A stretch of DNA of 39,795 bases from a virus, in IMG/VR virus record IMGVR_UViG_3300032285_001914, positions 1-39,795 of that record, one strand, 5' to 3'. Positions 63 to 39,795 of the stretch are shown here, one piece after another; the stretch's first letter is position 1, and every line of letters starts with the position of its first letter. The position numbers and the translations under genes were made by a program. Under the pieces are notes generated by a model. The model worked only from the letters and a program-made list of their open reading frames with translations, made no database searches and was not told the DNA's origin.

Positions 63-122
63 TTGACTTGACACGGGGTCAAGGGATATGATTTACTTGA
101 TGTATGGGGTTAAACCGACCCC
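63..122 (+). promoter_or_regulatory. Promoter and leader hairpin for the first gene
   Basis: TTGACA (68-73) is followed by 18 bases and TTTACT (92-97), with an extended -10 TG at 89-90. A second overlapping pair, TTGACT (63-68) and TATGAT (87-92), also has 18-base spacing. Just downstream GGGG (106-109) can pair with CCCC (119-122), and a purine-rich ribosome-binding site precedes the ATG at 141. The same arrangement recurs at several other operon starts. Confidence 0.7.
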
Positions 123-802: not shown

Positions 803-855
803 TTGACAGCAAGACAATCTATACATTAAGATAGACCTACAAGGGCAAACAGCCC
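803..855 (+). promoter_or_regulatory. Promoter and leader hairpin of the PurB operon
   Basis: TTGACA (803-808), 18 bases, TAAGAT (827-832). No TG extension is present. GGGC (843-846) and GCCC (852-855) form a small hairpin at the expected start of the transcript, followed by a GAGAGAG-type ribosome-binding site. This promoter should drive the three genes ending with the adenylosuccinate lyase. Confidence 0.65.
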
Positions 856-879
856 ACACTAATAGAGAGAGTGATTAAC

Positions 880-1515
880 ATGGCACGCAAGACAGTACAG
901 GCAGAAATCGAACTACAGAACCAGATCTTCGACGTACAGATTCACATGGACGACATGGTCGACGTAGGCTGGCGCGAGACCCGCGACCGCAACAACCGCA
1001 AAGGCTGGGTAGGCGTGGTCTACAGCGGCAACACAGACTCCGACCTACTTGGTAGCGAAGTTCAACGCCCATGGCTATTCAGCGAGGACGAAGCCAATCC
1101 AGAACTGCTAGCCAAGTACAAGGTTAAGTACGCCGAATGGTACGCCTACAATCGCAAGGATATCGACACCAAGCGCATTATCCTAGCCAAGGCTGTGCAG
1201 GCAGGTCTAATCGACCTCGACATCGAAGACCTCAAGTGGAGCGGCAACGACGGACACTTCAAGACCACCAAGCGCGGCATGGACATCTGGGTCAGCGTAG
1301 CCCCGCTCGGCTACTTCGCTGATCTGGAAATCCAGATCGAAGCCCAGCGCGTGGCTGGAGAAGCAGCCAAGGCTGAATCGATCCGCAAGGCACTGGAGAT
1401 CTTTGGTCTAGCACCAGAGATCGAGAAGATCATGGTCCGAGTTGAAGGCTGGAGTTCACCATTCTGGTACACTCGCCAAGAGATCGCAGCACTAGACGAA
1501 AACGGAGCGATCTAG
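880..1515 (+). CDS. Hypothetical protein, 211 aa
   Basis: I chose the ATG at 880 because the GAGAGAG ribosome-binding site lies at proper distance; an in-frame GTG at 871 sits almost on top of that site. The protein is soluble and mixed in charge, with many Asp/Trp/Lys residues, and has no membrane segment. Residues about 145-175 look like a continuous helix rich in Ala and Glu. It is the first gene of a three-gene transcript that continues with a Cys-rich peptide and PurB. I do not recognise it. A role near nucleotide metabolism is only suggested by the operon. Confidence 0.85.
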   Translation: MARKTVQAEIELQNQIFDVQIHMDDMVDVGWRETRDRNNRKGWVGVVYSGNTDSDLLGSEVQRPWLFSEDEANPELLAKYKVKYAEWYAYNRKDIDTKRIILAKAVQAGLIDLDIEDLKWSGNDGHFKTTKRGMDIWVSVAPLGYFADLEIQIEAQRVAGEAAKAESIRKALEIFGLAPEIEKIMVRVEGWSSPFWYTRQEIAALDENGAI

Positions 1516-1517
1516 CC

Positions 1518-1724
1518 ATGAAATGCACAGATTGTCACGTGGACTGGCACGCTCCAGACAACGAGATAACCGAGGAGCACTGCGAAGTGGGCATCTGTAC
1601 TAAGATGGTGTTCCACTGCTGCAGTTGCCGCAAGGTCTTGAAGGTTCGAATGATTCACAACCGTCAATGCCAGATCGCGCTGTACGAGGATTTCAACGAA
1701 CGAGAGGACCAAGACGATGATTAG
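1518..1724 (+). CDS. Small Cys-rich, probably zinc-binding protein, 68 aa
   Basis: It starts 2 bases after the previous stop and overlaps the start of PurB by 8 bases, so the three genes are translationally linked. The sequence has CTDC near residue 3, then CEVGIC near 22, then CCSC near 34, with several His. This spacing suggests one or two bound zinc ions. The C-terminus is very acidic (EREDQDDD). Such tiny zinc proteins are common in phages of actinobacteria, but the function is unknown. Confidence 0.75.
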   Translation: MKCTDCHVDWHAPDNEITEEHCEVGICTKMVFHCCSCRKVLKVRMIHNRQCQIALYEDFNEREDQDDD

Positions 1725-2997
1725 TCGATACGAAACCCCAGCGATGGCAGAGATCTGGTCGGACCAGCGACGTCTGGACACGTGGGTGAAGGTCGAGTTA
1801 GCCGTGATCAGCGCACAGGTCGAGACAGGCGTGCTACCAGACTCGGCTTGGAAGCAGGCGATCGGGCTGCCTGCGCCAACTCCCGAGCAGGTAGCCGAGC
1901 GGGAACTGATCACACGGCACGACGTGGTGGCGTTCCTCGATGTCTGGGGCGCAGAGTTCGCGCATCTGGGCATGACCAGCAGTGATCTGGTCGAAACCGC
2001 GCAGTCAATCGCGTTGGTGGAAGCCTCGGGCGTGCTGTTGCTAGCACTGGTCGAACTGTCCACCACCTGCCACAAGCATGCGCTCAATCAGTGGGACACG
2101 CACCGAATCGGACGCACCCACGGACAGCACGGCACTATCGACACTTGGGGTCATCGCATGGCGGACTTCACCACCGCACTGGACCGCCAACTCATGCGAC
2201 TAGCGCGCGCCACACAGGACGTCGGAATAGCCAAGTTGAGCGGACCGACAGGCACGTACGCCGACATCTCACGTGAAGTCGAAATGCGAGCCGCATACGA
2301 GTTGCTGTTGACACCAGCGGACGTGGCTAGCCAGATCTTGATGCGCGACCGTCTAATTCACTGGACGCACGTAGTTGCCGAGACAGTTGGAATCTGCGAA
2401 GCCATCGCCACTGAGATCAGACTGATGGCGCACGGCGACGTAGCCGAAGCACACGAATCATTCGGCAGTTCGCAAAAAGGCTCAAGTTCAATGCCGCACA
2501 AGCGAAATCCGATCACTGCTGAACGCATATGCGGTTTGGCTCGGTTAGCGCGTGCGTATTCCGCTGCAGTTGAACCTAGCATCGTCCAGTGGCACGAACG
2601 CGATATCGCGCACTCAAGCGTGGAGCGTGTGGCGTTAGCAGATCTGTGCCACGTGGCGCACTTTGCTCTGATCGAGACTAACCACTTGATCAACGGGCTG
2701 CGACTCAACGCCTATAAGATGCTGGATAAGGTTGTTAGCGATCTGAACTTGAGCAGCCACCGAGTTCTTGCTGCCCTGATGCGCGCGGGCATTCCACGGG
2801 CTGCCGCCCACGATTACGTCCAAGAAGCCACACGGGAGGCTTGGAGGACCGATCTACGGCGCGAAATAGCCCGAACCCTGCCCAAAGCCTTCCCAGATAC
2901 CGTCCTTGACCTCGAAGAGATATTCTCGCTGTCGGGCGCGACGGCGGGCATGGACTGGATTCGCGACGCGCTGGCGTCCGATGGGGATTTGGCTTGA
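1717..2997 (+). CDS. purB: Adenylosuccinate lyase (PurB), phage-encoded
   Basis: This enzyme of the fumarase/aspartase superfamily cleaves fumarate from succinyl-purine nucleotides. At 426 aa it is near the usual length. Conserved parts are all visible: TSSD at residues 87-90, GRTHGQ at 132-137 with the catalytic His135, the mobile signature loop ending in SSSMPHKRNP at 256-265 with its catalytic Ser, and ERDIAHSS at 294-301. It is therefore probably active. Beside a PurZ-type synthetase in the same genome, the likely substrate is the succinylated 2-amino-deoxyadenylate (dSMP), giving 2-amino-dAMP. Known Z-phages are described as relying on host PurB for this step. Codon use matches neighbouring phage genes, so I see no sign of a very recent host transfer. 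Confidence 0.95.
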   Translation: MISRYETPAMAEIWSDQRRLDTWVKVELAVISAQVETGVLPDSAWKQAIGLPAPTPEQVAERELITRHDVVAFLDVWGAEFAHLGMTSSDLVETAQSIALVEASGVLLLALVELSTTCHKHALNQWDTHRIGRTHGQHGTIDTWGHRMADFTTALDRQLMRLARATQDVGIAKLSGPTGTYADISREVEMRAAYELLLTPADVASQILMRDRLIHWTHVVAETVGICEAIATEIRLMAHGDVAEAHESFGSSQKGSSSMPHKRNPITAERICGLARLARAYSAAVEPSIVQWHERDIAHSSVERVALADLCHVAHFALIETNHLINGLRLNAYKMLDKVVSDLNLSSHRVLAALMRAGIPRAAAHDYVQEATREAWRTDLRREIARTLPKAFPDTVLDLEEIFSLSGATAGMDWIRDALASDGDLA

Positions 2998-3049
2998 CAA
3001 TGGGGCAAGTCATGTGTTTTACTTGGAATATGGGGGCGGACACACCGCC
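2994..3049 (+). promoter_or_regulatory. Promoter and leader hairpin
   Basis: TTGACA (2994-2999), 18 bases, TTTACT (3018-3023) with extended TG at 3015-3016. The -35 box overlaps the PurB stop codon. GGCGG (3035-3039) and CCGCC (3045-3049) form a perfect hairpin with a 5-base loop just before a GAGAGAG ribosome-binding site. The box sequences are almost identical to the promoter at 63-97. Confidence 0.7.
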
Positions 3050-3067
3050 AGAGAGAGAGCAATTCAG

Positions 3068-6538: not shown

Positions 6539-6568
6539 GGTCGGCGTTCATCTTGGCGAATGCCGACC
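6539..6568 (+). terminator. Hairpin terminator or attenuator
   Basis: Bases 6539-6549 pair with 6558-6568 over 11 positions with one G-T wobble, around an 8-base loop. It lies 18 bases after the DUF669 stop and 24 bases before the PrimPol start. The T-rich tail (TTCTGTTCT) is poor, so it may only reduce read-through into the primase gene. Confidence 0.6.
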
Positions 6569-6592
6569 TTCTGTTCTCTAGAGAGACCACAC

Positions 6593-8995
6593 ATGCCTAA
6601 TCAAGACACCGCCCTAAAACTCTACGACGCAGGACTCCTGCCACTACCAGCCAAAGGCAAATCGCCAACTGTACCGTGGCGTGACGTAGCCGACAATCGA
6701 CCAAGCCGTGCGCAGATCGCCAGTTGGTTCGACAAAGACCGTAACATCTGGATAGCCACAGGCGTCCCCAGCGGAATCGTAGTAATTGACTGTGACTCAC
6801 GCGGTGGAGACGTGTACTGGCGCGAACGCGTCGGAGCAGAACTGCTCGACATGACCACATGTGTCAAAACCAGCAAGGGCTACCACTACTGGCTTAAACT
6901 ACCAGATGGCGAAACAATGCGCTCTTGGTCCAGCAGTATCTCCCAGCGCGAGAACGGTATCTCCTTTGACATTCGAGGCGACGGTGGTGGCGTCATAGCC
7001 CCGCCCAGCGTCCACGAGTCGGGACACGTCTACGAGTTCATACGAGACCTAAACCACCTAAAGACCGCTCCACTGACCAAAATGCAGCAAGAAGGTGCAG
7101 ATCGAGACGGCGTTGAAGACGGCGGACCGAAAAGCCTGCTGTCCAGCCTGTTATCCGACCCACCAGCCGAAGGCGGACGTGACGTCTGGATAACCCGAGT
7201 GGCAGGACACCTCGCAAAAATCGTCCCCTACCGCGACGCCTACGTGCAGTTGCTACACACCATTAACAACAGCCTCAACGCACCCCTACGCGACGACGAG
7301 ATCGAAAAGAAAGTCGGCGTCTGGGACAAAGAACACGCCAAACCAGACATTCCAACAGCAGACTCAGGTTGGCTGATCGGCGACGGCATGTGGCTGTACA
7401 CCGAAACGCTAACCGAAGTTGCAGGAGCGAAAGTCGCAGGAATTGATCGTTGGTGCAACGCTGACGTTGAAGCCCGTGGCGTGATCGATGGTCCTCTCGG
7501 ACGGACCTACGCAGTTACCGTTCACAGATCTGACGGCGAAGCCCGAGACGACCTGATCAAAGGCGCGATGCTTGGACGCATGAACGACACCCTCGCATGG
7601 CTAGCCAGTCACGGCGTCTCAGTCGTACCACCAAAAAACGACAACCGCGCACGCGTCAGTGCAGGAGCAAGACTGCTGCGCTACCTCGAAAGCCAACAGC
7701 CAACACTGTACAAAGAAGTGCCACACCTCGGTTGGGTTGACGGAATCGGGTTCATCACCCACGAAGGCGTGATCACAGCCGCAGGAATGAAACCGCACGA
7801 AGGATTCATGCCAAGCCCAGCCCTGCAGAACCTCGCCCCAGTGAAATACGGAATGGGCGAAGCAGACCGCGCAGTTGAAGTTCTACGCGAAGTGCTCACA
7901 TTCCACGACGACGTAGTCACCGCTGTGTTCGGGTCGTGGTGGGTAGCCACACTGCTCAAAGGTCAATTCATGGGCGCAGTCGGACACTTCCCGTATTTCG
8001 CAATCGAAGCCGCCAGCGAATCAGGCAAAACACGCGGATTCTTCCGACTGATGCTCAACCTCGCAGGCACAGTGCGCTTCGGCGAATGGACCAAAGCCGC
8101 AACCCGTGACGCAATCGGCGCACACCGAAACGGAATCGTCCACATTGACGACAGCAACCGACTGGACAACATCGCAGATCTGCTCAGGCAGGCAACAGGT
8201 GAAGGCTCAGAAGGAAAGAAAGCCAACGACAACACAGGCACAGTCGACATCAAACTGGTCGCACCAATTCTCGTCAGTGGCGAAAGCCTAGGCGAACTCG
8301 GCGGCGGCGAGAAGGCACAACGCGACAGGCGTGTACTGCTGACCAACGTGCCAAGCCCAGTAGGACGCAAAAGCGTCAAAGGCGACTACCCACAGTGGGA
8401 CGACGTTAAACGACTGGAGCGACTCGAAGGTGACCTGAGCAAATACGCAGGCACAATGGTCATGTTGGCACTTCAGCGTGAACACATGGTCGGCGAAGTG
8501 ACAGATCTGCGCAAAGGACACGGACGTCATCACGAAGTGCTCGCGATCTTGCGATGCTCAGCCCGAATCCTAGCCGACATGGTGGACGACGAAAGCATCG
8601 TCGGACGCGTAGACGCTTGGTGCGAACAGCAACGCGATTTCGGCTCAGAGAACACCCTGATCACCAAACTGCTGCCGTGGGCAATCATCGACGAGTTCGG
8701 CAAAATGGTCGAGCGCATGGGCGGCGAGCCACCAGCGTTCGTCGAGGACGAGATCGTGTACATGCACCCAGACCGCCTAGCGGCGGCTTGGCAGAAAGAA
8801 CTGCGGAAACGTGGTAAGAACGATCGTCTGGATAGTCCAGAAGCCATCAGAGCGCAACTCCGCGCCCTCGGAATAACGGGGTCGGTATTCAAGCGCACTG
8901 GAGTCGGCAGAGACGCTCCGAAAGCCCGTTACGTGGCTCTCGACTCATATTGGTCCGATCGGGTAATCGAAATCGCTAACGGCGGTTGGGAGTAG
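6593..8995 (+). CDS. Primase-polymerase / helicase fusion (PrimPol)
   Basis: The 800-aa replication protein carries an archaeo-eukaryotic PrimPol domain at residues 1-150. Its metal site is seen in VVIDCDSRGG (66-68) and the third motif in DIRGDGGGVIAPPS (126-139), with His98 in SKGYHYW as motif II. A P-loop ATPase follows, with EAASESGKT at 472-480 and Walker B-like GIVHIDD at 514-520, so the protein should both prime and unwind DNA. I chose the ATG at 6593 with its AGAGAG site; an upstream ATG at 6560 lies inside the hairpin. Cyanophage S-2L, a Z-genome phage, also uses a PrimPol. Confidence 0.9.
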   Translation: MPNQDTALKLYDAGLLPLPAKGKSPTVPWRDVADNRPSRAQIASWFDKDRNIWIATGVPSGIVVIDCDSRGGDVYWRERVGAELLDMTTCVKTSKGYHYWLKLPDGETMRSWSSSISQRENGISFDIRGDGGGVIAPPSVHESGHVYEFIRDLNHLKTAPLTKMQQEGADRDGVEDGGPKSLLSSLLSDPPAEGGRDVWITRVAGHLAKIVPYRDAYVQLLHTINNSLNAPLRDDEIEKKVGVWDKEHAKPDIPTADSGWLIGDGMWLYTETLTEVAGAKVAGIDRWCNADVEARGVIDGPLGRTYAVTVHRSDGEARDDLIKGAMLGRMNDTLAWLASHGVSVVPPKNDNRARVSAGARLLRYLESQQPTLYKEVPHLGWVDGIGFITHEGVITAAGMKPHEGFMPSPALQNLAPVKYGMGEADRAVEVLREVLTFHDDVVTAVFGSWWVATLLKGQFMGAVGHFPYFAIEAASESGKTRGFFRLMLNLAGTVRFGEWTKAATRDAIGAHRNGIVHIDDSNRLDNIADLLRQATGEGSEGKKANDNTGTVDIKLVAPILVSGESLGELGGGEKAQRDRRVLLTNVPSPVGRKSVKGDYPQWDDVKRLERLEGDLSKYAGTMVMLALQREHMVGEVTDLRKGHGRHHEVLAILRCSARILADMVDDESIVGRVDAWCEQQRDFGSENTLITKLLPWAIIDEFGKMVERMGGEPPAFVEDEIVYMHPDRLAAAWQKELRKRGKNDRLDSPEAIRAQLRALGITGSVFKRTGVGRDAPKARYVALDSYWSDRVIEIANGGWE

Positions 8996-9165: not shown

Positions 9166-9401
9166 CACAGACCGTGGCACGGGGTGAGACACAGTTGGAA
9201 CTTGACTACGAGGCTGATTGTGTCTCGGATTCGAACCTATTGGAGCACATATCGTGCCACAGAGGGGTTGAGACACAACAGAACCCGAAACGACGGGCTA
9301 AAAAAACTGGTGTCTCGGTGTCTCATACAAAAAAATAAAATAAGTTACATGCGTGCGCGCGCGCGCCCGAACAGCCCCGTTCACTCCGAAAGGTGAGACA
9401 C
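9166..9401. other. Putative replication origin with TGAGACACA iterons
   Basis: This non-coding stretch between PrimPol and DNA polymerase holds five copies of TGAGACAC or its complement GTGTCTCA, some with one change: 9185-9193 (+), 9220-9227 (-), 9269-9277 (+), 9310-9317 (-) and 9318-9325 (-). A sixth copy at 9394-9402 (+) runs into the polymerase start codon. GTGGCACG near 9174 is matched in inverse by CGTGCCAC near 9253. An A-rich tract (9328-9346) is followed by 20 bases of perfectly alternating purine and pyrimidine (9347-9366, mostly GC repeats). Iterons, a flexible tract and flanking replication genes suggest an origin. Operator sites controlling the polymerase are the alternative. Confidence 0.6.
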
Positions 9402-11243
9402 ATGAAAGTCCTAAAACCAAGCGAAATCCTGCCAGATCTGGAAGGGCTGTACGTAGCCGTAGACACCGAAACCAGCGGACTGTTCGTAGATGATGGCGCG
9501 CGAGTCTCCATTGTTAGTGTGGCGTGGCGCGAAAGTGGACAGCCAAGGCTCGGAGCAGGCATAGTCACCTACGCATTCCCGTTCGACCAAGGACGCTACG
9601 CCGAAAAGACAGGCACAACCGAAAGCGCATTCGACGTCGACTACAACCTTGATCAGACTGAATGGGAGTTCTTACTCCAGTGGCTAACCAAGCACAACCT
9701 GATCATGCACAACGCCAAATTCGACCTGCACATGCTCCGCACAGGCACACGGCACTGGACAGGCGTGAACCTAGTCGACCAAGTCATCTGGGACACCCAA
9801 GTAACACACAACCTGTTCGAACCGCTACTGACCAGCAGCCTCAAGCCCACTAGCGCAAGGTTATTTGGGGAAGATGTGGTGCAAGAAAGCCGCGATATCC
9901 AGAACGCCCTACGCAAACAAGGCACAGGACTAACCAAACGCTACGATCTGGTCGACTGGTCAATCGTCGGACCGTACGCAGCACAAGACACCGCCCTGAC
10001 CCTACGGCTGTACGAATGGCAGCAACGCAGGCTCGAAACCGACGACCAGCACCTCGGAGTTCTCGCCCAGCGCGAAGTCGATCTCATGAAAGTGTTGTAC
10101 AAAATGGAAACCCGAGGCATCGGATTCGACGCCGAACGAGCCGAACAATCCGCCAGCAAACTGCGCGCCCTCAAGATCAAACTGCAAGAACAACTGCCGT
10201 TCAAGCCCACACTGCCAGCCGCCAAACAATACTACTTCGGAGATCTGGGGCTGATTCCTAGCAAAGTTGGCGCAAGTGGAGCACCAAGCCTCGACAACGA
10301 GACCATTAAGAAACTAGCCAAAAAGAACACCCCACACGCCGAGACCTTCCTGCGATGGACCGAAGTGAAAAGCGCACTAGAGAAATGGTACGACAACTGG
10401 GGATCGATGGTCGGACCAGATGGACGGCTGCGCACCTCGTTCCGACAGACTAAAGTGGTCAGCGGTCGCTTGAGTGTCGAACGTGTGCAACTGCAAGCAA
10501 TCCCGCACGACTACCAACTGAACCAATTGTTTGGTGAAGGAGTCGAAGGTGTGCGAGCGTTCTTCCAGCCAAAAGAAGGACACCAACTCTGGGAAATCGA
10601 CATCAGTCAAGCCGAGATCAGAGTCGCAACTGCTGTGGCGCACTGCCAGAACATGCGCGACCGACTGGAAGCAGGACAAGATGCACACGACGCTACAACA
10701 CAGTTGGTGTTCGGAATTGAAAAAGACGACCCTGAATGGGACAAGTACCGATCAGTGGGTAAACGGTTGACCTTTGGCATGCTGTACGGCGCAGGAGTTC
10801 GCACAACCCGCGAACAGATCAAACTGTACACAGGTGTTGACGCTAGTGAAGGTCAAGTACGCGAATGGGTAGAAGCGTACCGAACTGCGTTCCCCGAGTT
10901 CGTGCAAGCAGCAAGGTACGCAGACAACGCTGTGCAAAAACGCGGATATGTTAGACTAATAACAGGGCGGCTACGGCATTGGGGTCTTGATGAACAAGGT
11001 CACAAAGCATTCAACGCTGTTATACAAGGTGGCGTAGCGGAAACTATGAAGATCGCGATGATAGAAGTCGAGACACGGTTTCCAGACATCTTGCTCTTGC
11101 AGATTCACGACTCGATGGTCATCGAAGTTCCTGATGCCGTAGCGCAGTCCGTTGTCATTCAAGTGCGTGACACGTTGACTCAGATCTTCGAGTCGATGTT
11201 CAACATCGAGTTCAAGGCAGACTACAAACAATGGGCAAAATGA
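9402..11243 (+). CDS. Family A DNA polymerase with 3'-5' exonuclease (DpoZ-like)
   Basis: The 613-aa protein is the phage replicase, with the layout of a Klenow fragment and no 5'-3' nuclease domain. Proofreading motifs are intact: AVDTETSG (Asp21, Glu23), NAKFD (Asp108) and YAAQD (Asp196). Polymerase motifs are intact too: motif A with Asp400 (EIDISQAEIR), motif B with Arg450, Lys454, Phe458 and Tyr462 (GKRLTFGMLYG), and motif C IHD with Asp570. In Z-genome siphoviruses a polymerase of this type and size (DpoZ) accompanies PurZ and favours 2-aminoadenine. That preference is inferred here from context. The ATG at 9402 has the strong site AAAGGTGAG. Confidence 0.93.
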   Translation: MKVLKPSEILPDLEGLYVAVDTETSGLFVDDGARVSIVSVAWRESGQPRLGAGIVTYAFPFDQGRYAEKTGTTESAFDVDYNLDQTEWEFLLQWLTKHNLIMHNAKFDLHMLRTGTRHWTGVNLVDQVIWDTQVTHNLFEPLLTSSLKPTSARLFGEDVVQESRDIQNALRKQGTGLTKRYDLVDWSIVGPYAAQDTALTLRLYEWQQRRLETDDQHLGVLAQREVDLMKVLYKMETRGIGFDAERAEQSASKLRALKIKLQEQLPFKPTLPAAKQYYFGDLGLIPSKVGASGAPSLDNETIKKLAKKNTPHAETFLRWTEVKSALEKWYDNWGSMVGPDGRLRTSFRQTKVVSGRLSVERVQLQAIPHDYQLNQLFGEGVEGVRAFFQPKEGHQLWEIDISQAEIRVATAVAHCQNMRDRLEAGQDAHDATTQLVFGIEKDDPEWDKYRSVGKRLTFGMLYGAGVRTTREQIKLYTGVDASEGQVREWVEAYRTAFPEFVQAARYADNAVQKRGYVRLITGRLRHWGLDEQGHKAFNAVIQGGVAETMKIAMIEVETRFPDILLLQIHDSMVIEVPDAVAQSVVIQVRDTLTQIFESMFNIEFKADYKQWAK

Positions 11244-11669: not shown

Positions 11670-11725
11670 TTGACAAGGTGACAAGATCTGTGGTAAGATA
11701 GTTATATAAGGGCAGGGAAGCCCTT
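11670..11725 (+). promoter_or_regulatory. Promoter and leader hairpin of the methyltransferase/PurZ block
   Basis: TTGACA (11670-11675), 18 bases, TAAGAT (11694-11699) with extended TG at 11691-11692. AAGGGC (11708-11713) and GCCCTT (11720-11725) form a perfect 6-bp leader hairpin, followed by the ribosome-binding site AAAGGAGAG. An AGATCT palindrome lies in the spacer at 11684-11689. This should start the transcript that includes the methyltransferase and perhaps PurZ. Confidence 0.75.
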
Positions 11726-12443: not shown

Positions 12444-13364
12444 ATGAGTAAAGCAACAATAATAGTCGGTGACGTTAGGACTGCGTTGCAGTCTGTTCCA
12501 GATCGATCGATTCAAACGTGTGTTACGTCTCCCCCTTATTGGGGGCTTCGTGATTACGGCACGAACGATCAAATCGGATTAGAAGAAACGCCAGATGAGT
12601 ATGTTGATCAAATGGTACAAGTATTTAAAGAGGTGTGGCGCGTATTAAAAGACGACGGCACGCTTTGGTTAAATGTCGGTGATAGTTACGCAGGAAATAT
12701 GAGTAGAGCAAGTAACAACGGTCGCGCTGGCTACGGAACTGAACGCGAAGGCGTATTTAATCGAATACCCGACGGGCTAAAAGCAAAAGACTTAGTTGGT
12801 ATCCCGTGGCGGCTAGCGTTTGCGCTGCAGGCTGATGGATGGTACTTAAGACAAGACATTATTTGGGCTAAGCCTAATCCAATGCCTGAATCAGTCACGG
12901 ACAGATGTACTAAATCGCACGAATATATTTTTCTTATGAGCAAGTCTCGCAAGTATTTTTACGATCACAAATCCATTAAAGAACCAGCCCGAGATTGGGG
13001 AGTACGAGACAGAACGGACGGCAAGTATCACAATGAAGGAACTGGACTAACGCCTCATTCTGGATTAACCAAATCGTACGAAACCAAAAACAAGCGCGAT
13101 GTTTGGTATGTTCCAACCAAATCCTATAAAGGCGCGCATTTTGCTGTAATGCCTGAGGCGTTGGTTGAGCCCTGCATTCTTGCTGGCTCGTCCGTTGGTG
13201 ACACAGTGCTAGACCCTTTTATGGGTTCTGGAACTGTGGGTGTGGTTGCTCTCCGACACGGTAGAGAGTTTGTGGGCACGGAATTAAATCCAGATTACGC
13301 CGATCTTGCAGCAAGCCGAATTTCTAACGATGCACCGTTATTAAACGAAGTGGAGTCAAAATGA
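12444..13364 (+). CDS. DNA methyltransferase, beta class (TSPPY; N4-cytosine or N6-adenine)
   Basis: In this 306-aa S-adenosylmethionine-dependent DNA methyltransferase the catalytic motif TSPPYW is at residues 28-33. The cofactor-binding motif follows at the C-terminus (DPFMGSGT, 257-264, then FVGTELNPDYA), the order of the beta class. SPPY is usual in N4-cytosine enzymes but also occurs in some N6-adenine enzymes. The middle (about 85-230) should be the target recognition region. No restriction nuclease is nearby, so it probably modifies phage DNA for protection or signalling. If the genome carries 2-aminoadenine, cytosine is the simpler target. AGATCT, which is unusually frequent in this genome, is a candidate site. 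Confidence 0.92.
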   Translation: MSKATIIVGDVRTALQSVPDRSIQTCVTSPPYWGLRDYGTNDQIGLEETPDEYVDQMVQVFKEVWRVLKDDGTLWLNVGDSYAGNMSRASNNGRAGYGTEREGVFNRIPDGLKAKDLVGIPWRLAFALQADGWYLRQDIIWAKPNPMPESVTDRCTKSHEYIFLMSKSRKYFYDHKSIKEPARDWGVRDRTDGKYHNEGTGLTPHSGLTKSYETKNKRDVWYVPTKSYKGAHFAVMPEALVEPCILAGSSVGDTVLDPFMGSGTVGVVALRHGREFVGTELNPDYADLAASRISNDAPLLNEVESK

Positions 13365-13625: not shown

Positions 13626-14663
13626 GTGGGCAGAGTAAGCGTAGTAGTCGGAGGACAATTCGGCTCAGAAGGCAAAGGCGCAGTAGCAGGCTACCTAAGC
13701 ACCAATAAAGACGAGAACGTCATCGGCGTTCGAGTCGCAGGACCAAACGCAGGACACACAGTGTACGGCGACGGACCAGACGGCGAAATCGGCACATATG
13801 CGTGGAAACTGCGCACAGTGCCAGTCACAGCCGTCACCAACCCAGACAGCAAAATCGTCATAGCCGCAGGCTCAGAAATCGAGTTCGCAGTGCTAGACGA
13901 CGAACTGGACCGACTAGACCGCGCAGGCTACAACGGGACAGAGCGCATTATCATCGACGATCAAGCAACCGTGCTAGAAGATCGACACAAGCAAGTGGAG
14001 CAAGACGCAGATCTGACCGCCTTACTCGGCTCAACCAGCAAAGGCATCGGCGCAGCCCGCGCAGATCGCCTACTCCGAGGAGCGTCCCTAAATGGGGGTG
14101 GCGTTGATACCGCCGCACTACTGGCGCAAGAACTCAAAGACTACAACACCCACGTGATCATCGAAGGCACACAAGGCTACGGACTAGGGCTGCACGCAGG
14201 CTACTACCCATTCTGCACTTCCAGCGACTGCCGAGCCATTGACTTCCTAGCCATGGCAGGCGTGAACCCGTGGCAATACGGAGCAGCCGACGTAGACGTC
14301 TGGGTAGTCGCACGCACCTACCCGATTCGCGTGGCAGGAAACAGCGGTCCGTTGTCAAACGAGACCACATGGGACAAACTGGGCTTCGAACCAGAACGAA
14401 CCACAGTCACCAACAAGATCAGACGCGTAGGCGAATGGGACAGTGAACTCGTACGCGAAGCCGTCCGAGCCAACGGCGGCGCACCGACCGTCAAACTAGC
14501 CCTAACCATGTTCGACTACGTGTTCCCCGAACTCGCAGGTGCTACAATAGTCCCACAAGATCAGAAATACTGGGACTACATCGAAAAGATCGAAAAAGAG
14601 ACAGGAGCGAAGGTTGCGTTAGTTGGCACAAGCCCAACAACAATGGCGTACACCTACCACTAA
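13626..14663 (+). CDS. purZ: PurZ: adenylosuccinate synthetase-like, 2-aminoadenine pathway
   Basis: At 345 aa it is shorter than bacterial PurA (about 430). It should join aspartate to dGMP to make dSMP, the first step toward 2-amino-dATP. The phosphate-binding loop reads GGQFGSEGKG (residues 9-18): Ser14 stands where PurA has a catalytic Asp (WGDEGKGK), the change I recall as diagnostic of PurZ because it makes room for the 2-amino group. GPNAGHTV (39-46), EGTQGYGLGLH (180-190) and TYPIRVAGNSGP (231-242) match other family regions. The GTG start has GGAAGGAAA upstream. It heads a run of nucleotide-metabolism genes, and PurB lies elsewhere in the genome. Confidence 0.93.
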   Translation: MGRVSVVVGGQFGSEGKGAVAGYLSTNKDENVIGVRVAGPNAGHTVYGDGPDGEIGTYAWKLRTVPVTAVTNPDSKIVIAAGSEIEFAVLDDELDRLDRAGYNGTERIIIDDQATVLEDRHKQVEQDADLTALLGSTSKGIGAARADRLLRGASLNGGGVDTAALLAQELKDYNTHVIIEGTQGYGLGLHAGYYPFCTSSDCRAIDFLAMAGVNPWQYGAADVDVWVVARTYPIRVAGNSGPLSNETTWDKLGFEPERTTVTNKIRRVGEWDSELVREAVRANGGAPTVKLALTMFDYVFPELAGATIVPQDQKYWDYIEKIEKETGAKVALVGTSPTTMAYTYH

Positions 14664-14666
14664 AAC

Positions 14667-14927
14667 ATGAGCCTCGGATACCACTGCGACGGTCCAGAAT
14701 GCGACGAATACGTACTCACACACCAGAGTGCCGCCGCTGACTGGATCGTCGTTGTGGACGAAACCCAACAGACCTTTCACTTCTGTACGGGCTGGCACAT
14801 GACACGCTGGGGAGCAGCAGAATACGAACCTGCTAACGAACAGCCAGAAGAACAAGGGCAATTCATAGTCGTAGTTCACATGGACGAAGAATATGAAGAA
14901 GATGAAGACGAGGACGAAGAAGCATGA
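14667..14927 (+). CDS. Small zinc-binding-like protein with acidic tail, 86 aa
   Basis: It starts 3 bases after the PurZ stop. HCDGPEC near the N-terminus and HFCTGWH around residues 38-44 supply Cys and His for one zinc ion, a small beta-hairpin zinc fold often found in actinophages. The last 15 residues are almost all Asp and Glu (YEEDEDEDEEA). This acidic tail could mimic DNA or act as a binding tail. The next start overlaps its stop by ATGA. Confidence 0.75.
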   Translation: MSLGYHCDGPECDEYVLTHQSAAADWIVVVDETQQTFHFCTGWHMTRWGAAEYEPANEQPEEQGQFIVVVHMDEEYEEDEDEDEEA

Positions 14928-15013
14928 GCACAATCGCACCAGTAAAACCACTGAGAGTGGACCAACCAACCGTACCAGACAGTGAGATCTGGGACGACGA
15001 CGACGAAGACTAA
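14924..15013 (+). CDS. Very small acidic protein, 29 aa
   Basis: A 29-codon frame coupled by ATGA to the upstream gene and ending in an acidic tail (IWDDDDED). The acidic end resembles that of the preceding protein. Short, Pro-containing and probably unstructured. Its position in a tightly packed operon supports it, but coding is not certain. Confidence 0.5.
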   Translation: MSTIAPVKPLRVDQPTVPDSEIWDDDDED

Positions 15014-15029
15014 AACGAAGGAGAGGGCT

Positions 15030-15374
15030 ATGGAAGGCTCAAATCAAGACAAAAACACACGGATATTCGAGTTCATGGAGTGGTGGAACGCCCATTCTGA
15101 AGACTCACTAGGCGCAATCCTGCCAAAAGTGCGCGAATACGGCAGCACCGACTTGCACATCGTCGGCGAAGCCCTGCTAAAAATGATGCCGCAACTTGAA
15201 GGCAAAGTCCACGCAGCAGAACTGGGCATCTCGTTCTACCTGCTAGGCAAAGTCGGACGAATCATCGGCGGCTACGCAGACGGACACGCACCCAGCGACG
15301 ACACGTGGTACGACACAGGCATCTACGCACTGATGGCACAACGCGTACGCGCGACAGGTGGCATCTTTCCATGA
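15030..15374 (+). CDS. mazZ: MazG-like nucleotide pyrophosphohydrolase, MazZ candidate
   Basis: The 114-aa protein has the pattern I know from actinophage MazG-like proteins: LPKVREYGSTDLHIVG at about residues 31-46, an AAELGISFYLLGKVGR helix at 62-77 and SDDTWYDTGIY at 89-99. Glu and Asp at 36, 64, 90, 91 and 95 could bind the metal ions. In Z-genome phages the MazG-like enzyme MazZ converts dGTP to dGMP, which is the PurZ substrate. Lying three genes after PurZ in the same operon, it fits that role well. The classical MazG ExxE...ExxD spacing is not exact, so the family call is moderate. The start has GGAGAGG. Confidence 0.7.
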   Translation: MEGSNQDKNTRIFEFMEWWNAHSEDSLGAILPKVREYGSTDLHIVGEALLKMMPQLEGKVHAAELGISFYLLGKVGRIIGGYADGHAPSDDTWYDTGIYALMAQRVRATGGIFP

Positions 15375-15784
15375 TCGTGTACCTAGCAGGACCAATCGAC
15401 AACGCACAAGATCACAGCAACGTACACAACGTACGCAACGTACGCCAAGATCTGCACACGCTACTGAAAAACCACGTTGTATTCGACCCATCAGCAGCGT
15501 GGACCGTAGCAAGCACCCAAAAACCGCGACCAGCCCTACAAGAGATCAACGACTACGCACTGGAATCATGCGACATGGTCGTGGCGTTCCTAATGCCAAA
15601 CGTTCTCACAATCGGCACAATCATGGAAATCCAACTGGCAAGCACGCTCGGCAAAACCGTGTTGCTGTACGCACCAGACATCAAGCCAAGTTGGGCATTG
15701 GAAGGGCTGCGTGGAGTAATCCACTGCACCGATCGCGAAGTGCTAAAAGACATCATCGACTCAATGGAAGCAGTTATCGGCTAA
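15371..15784 (+). CDS. Nucleoside 2-deoxyribosyltransferase-like protein
   Basis: In this 137-aa Rossmann-like protein, IVYLAGPIDN opens the fold. DMVVAFL and GTIMEIQLA (Gly82-Thr83, Glu86) match the conserved region with the catalytic Glu of nucleoside 2-deoxyribosyltransferases and the related deoxynucleotide N-hydrolases (DNPH1/RCL). It would cleave or exchange the base of a deoxynucleoside or its monophosphate. In this operon it might remove dAMP or dGMP by-products and could replace the missing dATPase DatZ; that is speculation. It starts at ATG 15371, overlapping the MazZ-like stop (ATGA). Residues about 18-25 are encoded by three near-identical 9-base units. Confidence 0.75.
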   Translation: MIVYLAGPIDNAQDHSNVHNVRNVRQDLHTLLKNHVVFDPSAAWTVASTQKPRPALQEINDYALESCDMVVAFLMPNVLTIGTIMEIQLASTLGKTVLLYAPDIKPSWALEGLRGVIHCTDREVLKDIIDSMEAVIG

Positions 15785-15858: not shown

Positions 15859-16079
15859 TGACACAAGAAGAGACAGAGTTGCTAGAACTGATCGCGCGAA
15901 TTGACGAAGCAGACAAGCATTACTCGTATTACAAAACCGATTACGGCTTGGCTTGTAAGTACTGCAGCGACAAAGCGCGCGACAAATCAGAAAACAAAAA
16001 CGTTTTCGTTATGAGTCCGTGTTTAGAACTTGACGCGATCTACAAGACCATCAAAACACCAGACAGAGAGCAACAATGA
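15858..16079 (+). CDS. Hypothetical protein, 73 aa
   Basis: It is coupled by TAATG upstream and overlaps dUTPase by 4 bases. The N-terminus is a Glu/Leu helix (ETELLELIARIDEADKHY). A CKYC pair at about residues 33-36 and a later Cys in MSPCLELD may bind a metal. I do not recognise it. It is located between the nucleotide-metabolism genes but has no visible catalytic motif. Confidence 0.65.
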   Translation: MTQEETELLELIARIDEADKHYSYYKTDYGLACKYCSDKARDKSENKNVFVMSPCLELDAIYKTIKTPDREQQ

Positions 16080-16495
16080 ACAACAAACTGCTGTACATCG
16101 GAACAGCACCAACACGTGCACATCACGACGACGCGGGCTTCGATCTGTACGTCAATGGCGACTGGACCGTAGAGCCAAACTCGTTCGTAGACATCGACCT
16201 CAACTGTGCAGTGGCGTTCCCAGCAGGAACATGGGGACTGCTCACAGGACGCAGCAGCACACTACGCAAACGCGGACTGCTCGTAGCCCAAGGCATCATC
16301 GACACAGGCTACACAGGACCACTGTTCGCAGGAGTGCAAAACCTGACCAGCAAACCTGTTCACGTTGAGCACGGCGAGCGAATAGCCCAACTGGTAATAA
16401 TGGCGAACCTAGCGATGCTCGTAGAACTGGAAGAAACCACCGAACTACCAGACACAACGAGAGGCGCAAATGGATTCGGTTCAACAGGCAACTAG
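16076..16495 (+). CDS. dut: dUTPase (dUTP diphosphatase), trimeric type
   Basis: The 139-aa protein has all five dUTPase motifs in order: AGFDLY (20-25), GRSSTLRKRGL (58-68), GIIDTGYTG (73-81, catalytic Asp76), GERIAQLV (100-107) and RGANGFGSTG (129-138). It hydrolyses dUTP to dUMP and pyrophosphate, keeping uracil out of phage DNA and feeding dTMP synthesis. It closes the nucleotide block that begins with PurZ. The ATG overlaps the upstream stop by 4 bases. Length and motifs indicate a complete enzyme. Confidence 0.93.
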   Translation: MNNKLLYIGTAPTRAHHDDAGFDLYVNGDWTVEPNSFVDIDLNCAVAFPAGTWGLLTGRSSTLRKRGLLVAQGIIDTGYTGPLFAGVQNLTSKPVHVEHGERIAQLVIMANLAMLVELEETTELPDTTRGANGFGSTGN

Positions 16496-39496: not shown

Positions 39497-39676
39497 ATGC
39501 ATTTGACACTCAATGGAATCGTGCTGATCATCTGGCTGATAGCGTGCCTGATGTTCTGGCGCATGGGCTTCACCGCTGGCAAGAACGCGGTCCGTCGCTA
39601 CAACCGCCGAGAGCGCGGAATCGAGGCGGCTCAAGCCCGTCACCCGTCCATCACGTACGCCCAGAAGTTCCGCTAG
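39497..39676 (+). CDS. Small membrane protein spanning the genome junction, 59 aa
   Basis: Residues 5-21 (LNGIVLIIWLIACLMFW) form one membrane helix, followed by a strongly basic region (RRYNRRERGIE) that should stay in the cytoplasm. The stop codon TAG lies in the terminal repeat, and the same TAG is at bases 2-4 of the window. The hairpin just downstream probably ends the transcript. Function unknown. Confidence 0.65.
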   Translation: MHLTLNGIVLIIWLIACLMFWRMGFTAGKNAVRRYNRRERGIEAAQARHPSITYAQKFR

Positions 39677-39795
39677 GGACGGGGCGGCATTCGAGGGGGG
39701 CTTCCGACACGCCGAGAAGCCCTCCTCACCCATATTGACTTGACACGGGGTCAAGGGATATGATTTACTTGATGTATGGGGTTAAACCGACCCCC
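39673..39795. repeat. Terminal direct repeat, right copy
   Basis: Identical to bases 1-123, including the terminator hairpin (39693-39727) and the promoter for the first gene. The upstream gene's stop codon is inside the repeat, and the promoter in it reads into the gene at 141 when the ends are joined. The window is therefore a complete circular map or has short terminal redundancy. Confidence 0.95.

Follow-up and report, generated by a model that had tools for sequence, protein, structure and literature searches.

The synthesis of 2-aminoadenine (Z) nucleotides by phages is usually drawn as PurZ plus host enzymes. In the systems of phiVC8, S-2L and SH-Ab 15497, PurZ has Ser in place of Asp13, a Z-selective polymerase is mostly present, no phage PurB was found, and the lyase that turns dSMP into dZMP is the host's (PMC12884076; PMC12783734), one source calling it the 'bacterial adenylosuccinate lyase (PurB)' (PMC12783734). 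An earlier note on the DNA studied here had taken the host enzyme as the described rule, and both papers bear this out. Among the PurZ0 phages with the enzymes DutZ and DmtZ, both characterised in PMC12884076, Wayne has DUF5664 and no PurB, whereas in Ghobes gene 36, which adjoins the DNA polymerase (DpoZ) gene, is annotated as adenylosuccinate lyase. The words 'PurB' and 'lyase' are absent from the main text of the 2026 Ghobes study (PMC12884076), which leaves a gap in the open-access literature, as the very phage used for that biochemistry has purB beside its polymerase. GenBank records already call the phage family 'PurB-like', and no published function was found in the open-access literature for the proteins of this family in Streptomyces and Gordonia phages.

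The DNA analysed here (the window) is a 39,795-base virus record which, like the genomes of Wayne and Ghobes, has PurZ, DpoZ and homologues of dmtZ and dutZ, and which has a PurB of its own, unlike phiVC8, S-2L and SH-Ab 15497. We consider it probable, at roughly 80%, that the second enzyme of Z synthesis is one that this phage makes for itself. The enzyme family and the pathway are known; what appears to be undescribed in the open-access literature, a scope that excludes the 2021 Science and 2023 PurZ0 papers, is that phages recurrently encode the second step themselves and inherit it together with the rest of the pathway. In a large, deeply rooted group of Z-phages the lyase, too, appears to come from the phage. 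This alters the steps on which host range can depend, offers engineered cells a second enzyme for Z-nucleotide production and allows PurZ0 phages that have PurB to be compared cleanly with those that lack it.

In the proposed scheme, PurZ would couple aspartate and dGMP to give dSMP (N6-succino-2-amino-dAMP), the phage PurB would remove fumarate from dSMP to give dZMP, and host kinases would convert dZMP into dZTP, the substrate for DpoZ, while DutZ and DmtZ would drain dATP and dAMP. We infer that dSMP is a substrate of the window PurB and that most of the flux runs through this enzyme and not through the PurB of the host.

purB and the Z-pathway genes of the window

The first and last 123 nt of the window are a terminal repeat (1-123 = 39673-39795), which points to a circular assembly of a 39.7-kb phage genome with an arbitrary cut point; the position of purB 'near the left end', to which the earlier note had drawn attention, is therefore an artefact, there being no meaningful left end. 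All major genes are on the + strand (Table 1).

Table 1. Features of the window discussed in the text
Feature	Position	Strand	Basis or remark
Putative promoter-leader element, variant third copy	63-115	+	Sequence repeat
Putative promoter-leader element, TTGACA-N18-TAAGAT, GC hairpin, AGAGAGAG	803-855	+	Precedes the 871-1515/purB unit
ORF preceding purB, same putative unit	871-1515	+	No family match
purB, adenylosuccinate lyase (proposed dSMP lyase)	1717-2997	+	426 aa; TIGR00928, catalytic residues, fold
Putative promoter-leader element, partial copy	2993-3060		Directly behind purB
PrimPol-type primase/polymerase, replication block	6560-8995	+	Pfam Prim-Pol 83 bits
dpoZ, family A DNA polymerase, DpoZ_2 type	9393-11243	+	NF038381 354.2 bits, cut-off 350, narrow margin
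Putative promoter-leader element, near-identical to the 803 copy	11670-11722	+	Precedes the unit leading to purZ
purZ, PurZ0-like succino-2-amino-deoxyadenylate synthase	13626-14663	+	345 aa; NF038379 336.6 bits, cut-off 300
orfX, small helical protein	14982-15374	+	Homologues beside purZ in PurB-bearing Z-phages
dmtZ homologue	15371-15784	+	137 aa; YLAGPID motif; ATG overlaps the orfX stop
dutZ homologue, dUTPase fold	16076-16495	+	dUTPase Pfam 91.8 bits; 51-57% identity to the Wayne DutZ domain

The purB reading frame fills exactly the interval listed, is intact and starts with an ATG preceded by the purine-rich GAGAGG. Its product scored 337.5 bits against TIGR00928 (purB), above the NCBI equivalog cut-off of 326.2, which several of its Z-phage relatives do not reach (148-257 bits); in Pfam, Lyase_1 matched and ADSL_C was slightly under its cut-off. 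The catalytic set defined in Staphylococcus aureus PurB, from which the residue roles including the nucleotide contacts are taken (PMC2917274), is complete (His68, Ser94, His141, Gln212, Ser262, Lys268, Asn270 and Glu275 in S. aureus numbering), and Ser306 and Arg310 are likewise present. In window numbering, the nucleotide contacts are R4, Y5, S89, Q206, S300 and R304, corresponding to Arg4, Tyr5, Thr/Ser95, Gln212, Ser306 and Arg310. His141, Ser262, Lys268 and Glu275 occur in 58 of 58 Z-phage PurBs and His68 in 57, the remaining row having a gap. An ordinary PurB beta-elimination would then have S256, on the mobile loop, as general base and H135 as general acid (S. aureus S262 and H141), with K262 and N264 (S. 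aureus K268 and N270) holding the succinyl carboxylates.

Enzymes of the PurB family are homotetramers in which three subunits contribute to each active site. An AlphaFold2 monomer model of the window protein (pLDDT 94.1, pTM 0.92) has the fumarase/aspartase-superfamily fold, and its nearest PDB entries are bacterial PurBs (2pfm, Z 42.8, with 2pfm_A matched over 420 residues; 1c3u, 42.7; 2x75, 41.7). With the bacterial PurBs of the TIGR00928 type (B. subtilis, S. aureus 2x75, T. maritima 1c3c and B. anthracis 2pfm) it shares the whole-length fold (Z 42), the catalytic residues and the above-cut-off score; it differs in being only 32-33% identical to them, in its SGPxG loop and Gln137, in a C-terminal domain that diverges after about residue 380 and in being phage-borne. 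Taking the TIGR00928 score, the residues and the fold together, the proposal that a phage with PurZ and DpoZ carries a PurB with intact catalytic motifs is confirmed, far above chance. Judged from its sequence, the gene is a real, intact, phage-borne PurB, and its membership of the Z pathway is argued from linkage and descent. Another reaction of the fumarase superfamily, for example that of 3-carboxymuconate cycloisomerase or nitrosuccinate lyase, is very improbable: models of the PcaB, XcbD and CreD type gave weaker matches, as expected within the superfamily, but the PurB model alone passes its curated cut-off, the nucleotide-phosphate ligands R4, Y5, S300 and R304 are present, the nearest structures are PurBs, and the PurZ of the same genome would make a PurB-type substrate.

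The window PurZ has the motif GGQFGSEGKG, with Ser at the position of the catalytic Asp13 of PurA, and is 51-57% identical to the PurZs of Archimedes, Wayne and Hiyaa and about 30-33% identical to those of phiVC8 and S-2L; Archimedes PurZ is a PurZ0 (PDB 7VF6; PMC12884076), the subgroup being a PurZ clade that prefers ATP/dATP. Downstream of purZ run orf86, orfX, dmtZ and dutZ, and purB lies 10.6 kb upstream. The dmtZ product is 32% identical to the N-terminal domain of Wayne DmtZ-DutZ (E 2e-12), and by homology dmtZ and dutZ would encode dATP/dGTP pool enzymes of the PurZ0-phage kind. The window phage is predicted to swap adenine for 2-aminoadenine in its DNA. Sak4-like and Cas4-like exonuclease genes are also present, and the capsid protein gave distant matches only.

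Association of phage PurB with PurZ

We searched 50,697 phage records of INPHARED by tblastn with three different PurBs. Eight plausible annotated phages with PurB were obtained: Streptomyces phages Hiyaa, Keanu, Spocter and Galactica, and Gordonia phages Archimedes, Ghobes, Frizzle and Sapo. The corresponding PurZ search matched 201 records, including 5 of Streptomyces and 6 of Gordonia phages, numbers equal to those given by the PurB search. Galactica, Spocter, Hiyaa, Keanu, Archimedes and Ghobes were found by name among the PurZ matches listed, and the assignment of Frizzle and Sapo rests on the equal Gordonia record counts; on this basis all eight isolate phages with PurB belong to PurZ-bearing groups (Streptomyces Hiyaa; Gordonia Archimedes/Ghobes). 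At tblastn sensitivity, no PurB was found in the Arthrobacter, Microbacterium, Vibrio and Acinetobacter Z-phages or in S-2L, suggesting that host PurB suffices there.

Several INPHARED records labelled as phage have bacterial-looking purB regions (OR845001, OR846592, OR846755 and MW495066). As evidence of phage PurB without PurZ we set aside Listeria LM 4-11-1, in which purE-purK-purB-purC-purQ (genes recognised by eye) look bacterial; Enterococcus Efs 1-1-1, with a bacterial-looking purK-purB pair; Staphylococcus SA 1306 Kay, in which the start of PurB is identical to that of S. aureus PurB; and 'Microcystis phage MaAM05', in which metG, mtaB, glgX and ftsH surround purB. Beyond the eight phages above, the PurB hits that were checked one by one, a set without the faecal scaffolds that lack annotation, the Acinetobacter contigs and the Pseudomonas Y5 record, look like bacterial contamination.

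In IMG/VR, single-sequence PurB and PurZ queries gave no match and alignment queries did. Relatives of the phage PurB alignment were encoded on 102 stretches, the best 80 of which were kept. From these, 35 PurB contigs of 30-100 kb were tallied by hand: 21 had PurZ above the cut-off (20 plus Hiyaa), two more had a Ser-type PurZ below it, and about a third were without canonical PurZ. Conversely, PurB was present in 17 of 31 PurZ0-type contigs of at least 30 kb, again a hand count. These metagenome figures lean towards Z-phages, whose PurBs made up the query alignment; the INPHARED result is independent of that alignment. PurB thus occurs in other PurZ-encoding genomes, in IMG/VR as well as in the Streptomyces and Gordonia isolate groups. 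The earlier note had named an equal occurrence of phage PurB in phages without PurZ as an outcome that would speak against its proposal; in both INPHARED and IMG/VR, PurB instead tracks PurZ. Not all Z-phages have it, and it also occurs outside this group.

In five contigs (L142, L146, L147, L151 and L155), purZ, a 103-aa orfX and purB follow one another on one strand, with a dmtZ::dutZ fusion after purB where the contig extends that far. Neighbouring genes of the L147 cassette overlap by a few bases (1868/1878, 2170/2179, 3267/3270), and purZ and purB look co-transcribed in this lineage. The order purZ-orfX-purB-dmtZ::dutZ, which places the putative lyase between the synthetase and the pool enzymes, is the strongest functional argument for a role in Z synthesis. 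It also bears on the possibility that phage PurB gives general purine support, boosting host de novo synthesis by cleaving SAICAR and SAMP in the manner of an auxiliary metabolic gene, with a secondary link to PurZ. Cellular PurB is bifunctional and PurB does occur in viral contigs in which no PurZ was found, including small ones with a cyanobacterium-like PurB; nevertheless, we consider such a role improbable, because purB lies inside the purZ-dmtZ-dutZ cassette in one lineage, because extra AMP would counteract the dATP depletion practised by these phages, and because neither the ORF list nor the family profiles revealed a purine-pathway gene besides purB and purZ in the window.

Several contigs found in these searches stand apart. 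Two PurZ contigs (G113, 14320-15117; G126, 7070-7783, L157) gave PurB matches in pieces only, in one open frame; their PurB is perhaps very divergent or shortened and heading for loss. In 4.9-6.2-kb viral contigs (L041, L043 and L047), PurB branches with Prochlorococcus/Synechococcus and is either a cyanophage auxiliary gene or contamination. Contigs L247, L248, L251, L253-L257 and L261 (13-427 kb, mostly of jumbo-phage size) encode PurB together with divergent PurA/PurZ-like proteins that score below the PurZ cut-off and have the catalytic Asp replaced by Ser (GSSGKG, GSCGKG, GSEAKG); the latter possibly form a third PurZ class.

Descent and active site of the Z-phage PurBs

In a PurB tree of 131 rows, one branch (SH-aLRT 93, below the starred level of the tool) parts the Z-phage PurBs (61 rows, all but L063) from 44 cellular and 26 other viral PurBs; it persists after removal of long rows (SH-aLRT 92.8). 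No full PurZ was found for 14 of the 61 rows, mostly fragments of the same lineages. The closest kin of the window PurB, at 65% (L010) and 60% (L011) identity, are both in PurZ contigs. On the same branch lie the PurB-like proteins of Hiyaa, Galactica and Keanu (Streptomyces) and Archimedes, Ghobes and Sapo (Gordonia), likewise from PurZ-bearing groups; the window protein is 29-38% identical to them over the whole alignment, and the Gordonia forms, at 365 aa, are missing the greater part of the C-terminal domain. Placed against cells, the window gene falls beside the cellular PurBs, not within them. We rejected a recent acquisition from a sampled host, since the nearest cellular PurBs, from Nocardiopsidaceae and Actinomadura, are 43-44% identical and branch apart.

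PurZ and PurB distances were correlated across 31 dereplicated pairs (r 0.61; 0 of 5000 permutations as high). Such a correlation would be expected from long joint descent, and ordinary vertical phage descent would yield the same. Most pairs gave purB dN/dS values of 0.04-0.16, and the Streptomyces and Gordonia pairs gave 0.31; such low values indicate that purB is maintained under purifying selection.

Near the active site, departures of the window PurB from S. aureus PurB include Glu146 to Thr, Pro147 to Ile, Val143 to Gln and Ala183 to Pro. Three positions (S. aureus numbering) separate Z-phage from cellular PurBs: at 183, where SGAVG becomes SGPxG, Pro is found in 57 of 58 Z-phage PurBs and 3 of 44 cells; at 143, beside the catalytic acid, Gln replaces Val/Ile in 46 of 58 against 1 of 44; and His144 is retained in 3 of 58 against 40 of 44. 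In S. aureus PurB the carbonyl of Ala183 holds Gln212 in place for its contact with the purine N6 (PMC2917274), so that the loop change sits where specificity could be affected, a suggestive location. It is possible, if somewhat doubtful, that the pocket has been changed to favour the 2-amino-2'-deoxy substrate over SAMP and SAICAR, which would avoid feeding AMP and dATP synthesis. Shared ancestry would account for the signature equally well, and the signature does not by itself amount to proof of tuning, because two nearby cellular PurBs (L167 and L170) also have Pro. Elsewhere in the superfamily, as in the E. coli-type PurB, Gln is common at position 143, which weakens its weight as a mark of specialisation; nor can the groups be told apart by the N1-contacting residue (Ser89 in the window).

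The same data bear on an ordinary PurB of unchanged specificity that raises flux when little host PurB is available or during host shutdown, a reading to which we give not quite an even chance. It overlaps the explanation that we prefer, namely that the phage makes its own second-step enzyme, and differs from it on specificity only. Such a redundant enzyme would fit both the catalytic set, which is the same as that of cellular PurB, and the patchy occurrence among PurZ0 phages, if the benefit depends on the host; the deep separate branch and the common pocket changes, however, exceed what a recent copy would show. We suggest only tentatively that a PurB subfamily specialised as dSMP lyase has arisen in Z-phages, with a reshaped purine loop and a preference for the 2-amino-2'-deoxy substrate. 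Together with PurZ, DutZ and DmtZ it would take dGMP to dZMP independently of the host, and actinophage and metagenomic lineages would have inherited the whole set as a single module.

Putative promoter-leader elements and neighbours of purZ

The putative promoter-leader elements of Table 1 consist of TTGAC-N5-G(T/A)CAA over the -35 region, which is operator-like, an 18-base spacer and a -10 sequence, followed by a GC hairpin and an AGAGRGAG Shine-Dalgarno sequence (AGAGAG-type). Three full elements were observed in the window against 0.01 expected from Markov resamples, and none on the other strand. The related contig L011 also has three (7228, 7961 and 9254), one of them about 750 bases upstream of its purB.

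The earlier note had placed purB in a transcription unit different from that of purZ, so that the two steps might be timed separately. Separate transcripts are quite possible, given the promoter-like elements at 803 and 11670, while strand offers no evidence for them, all major genes being on the + strand. The idea of separate timing is weak: a near-identical type of promoter on both units argues against it, as does the apparent co-transcription in the cassette lineage. These sequence features suggest that the purB and purZ units may be under the same control.

Homologues of orfX lie beside purZ in the L147 class (L147, 1868-2179), in Archimedes (gp51; L003, 2956-3342), in Hiyaa and in L090/L091, and none was found in Wayne. 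The family shares the motifs EYGSxDL ... SDDTWxD, and the model is helical (pLDDT 78). Family and fold searches gave no significant match, the best MazG-type row of the fold search being S-2L 7ody (E 5.7). A MazG identity is thus not accepted and stays a motif-based lead, by which orfX could possibly be MazG-like and supply dGMP from dGTP.

Directly upstream of purZ, at 12444-13364, lies an N6/N4 DNA methyltransferase gene, in a genome predicted to hold Z, not A.
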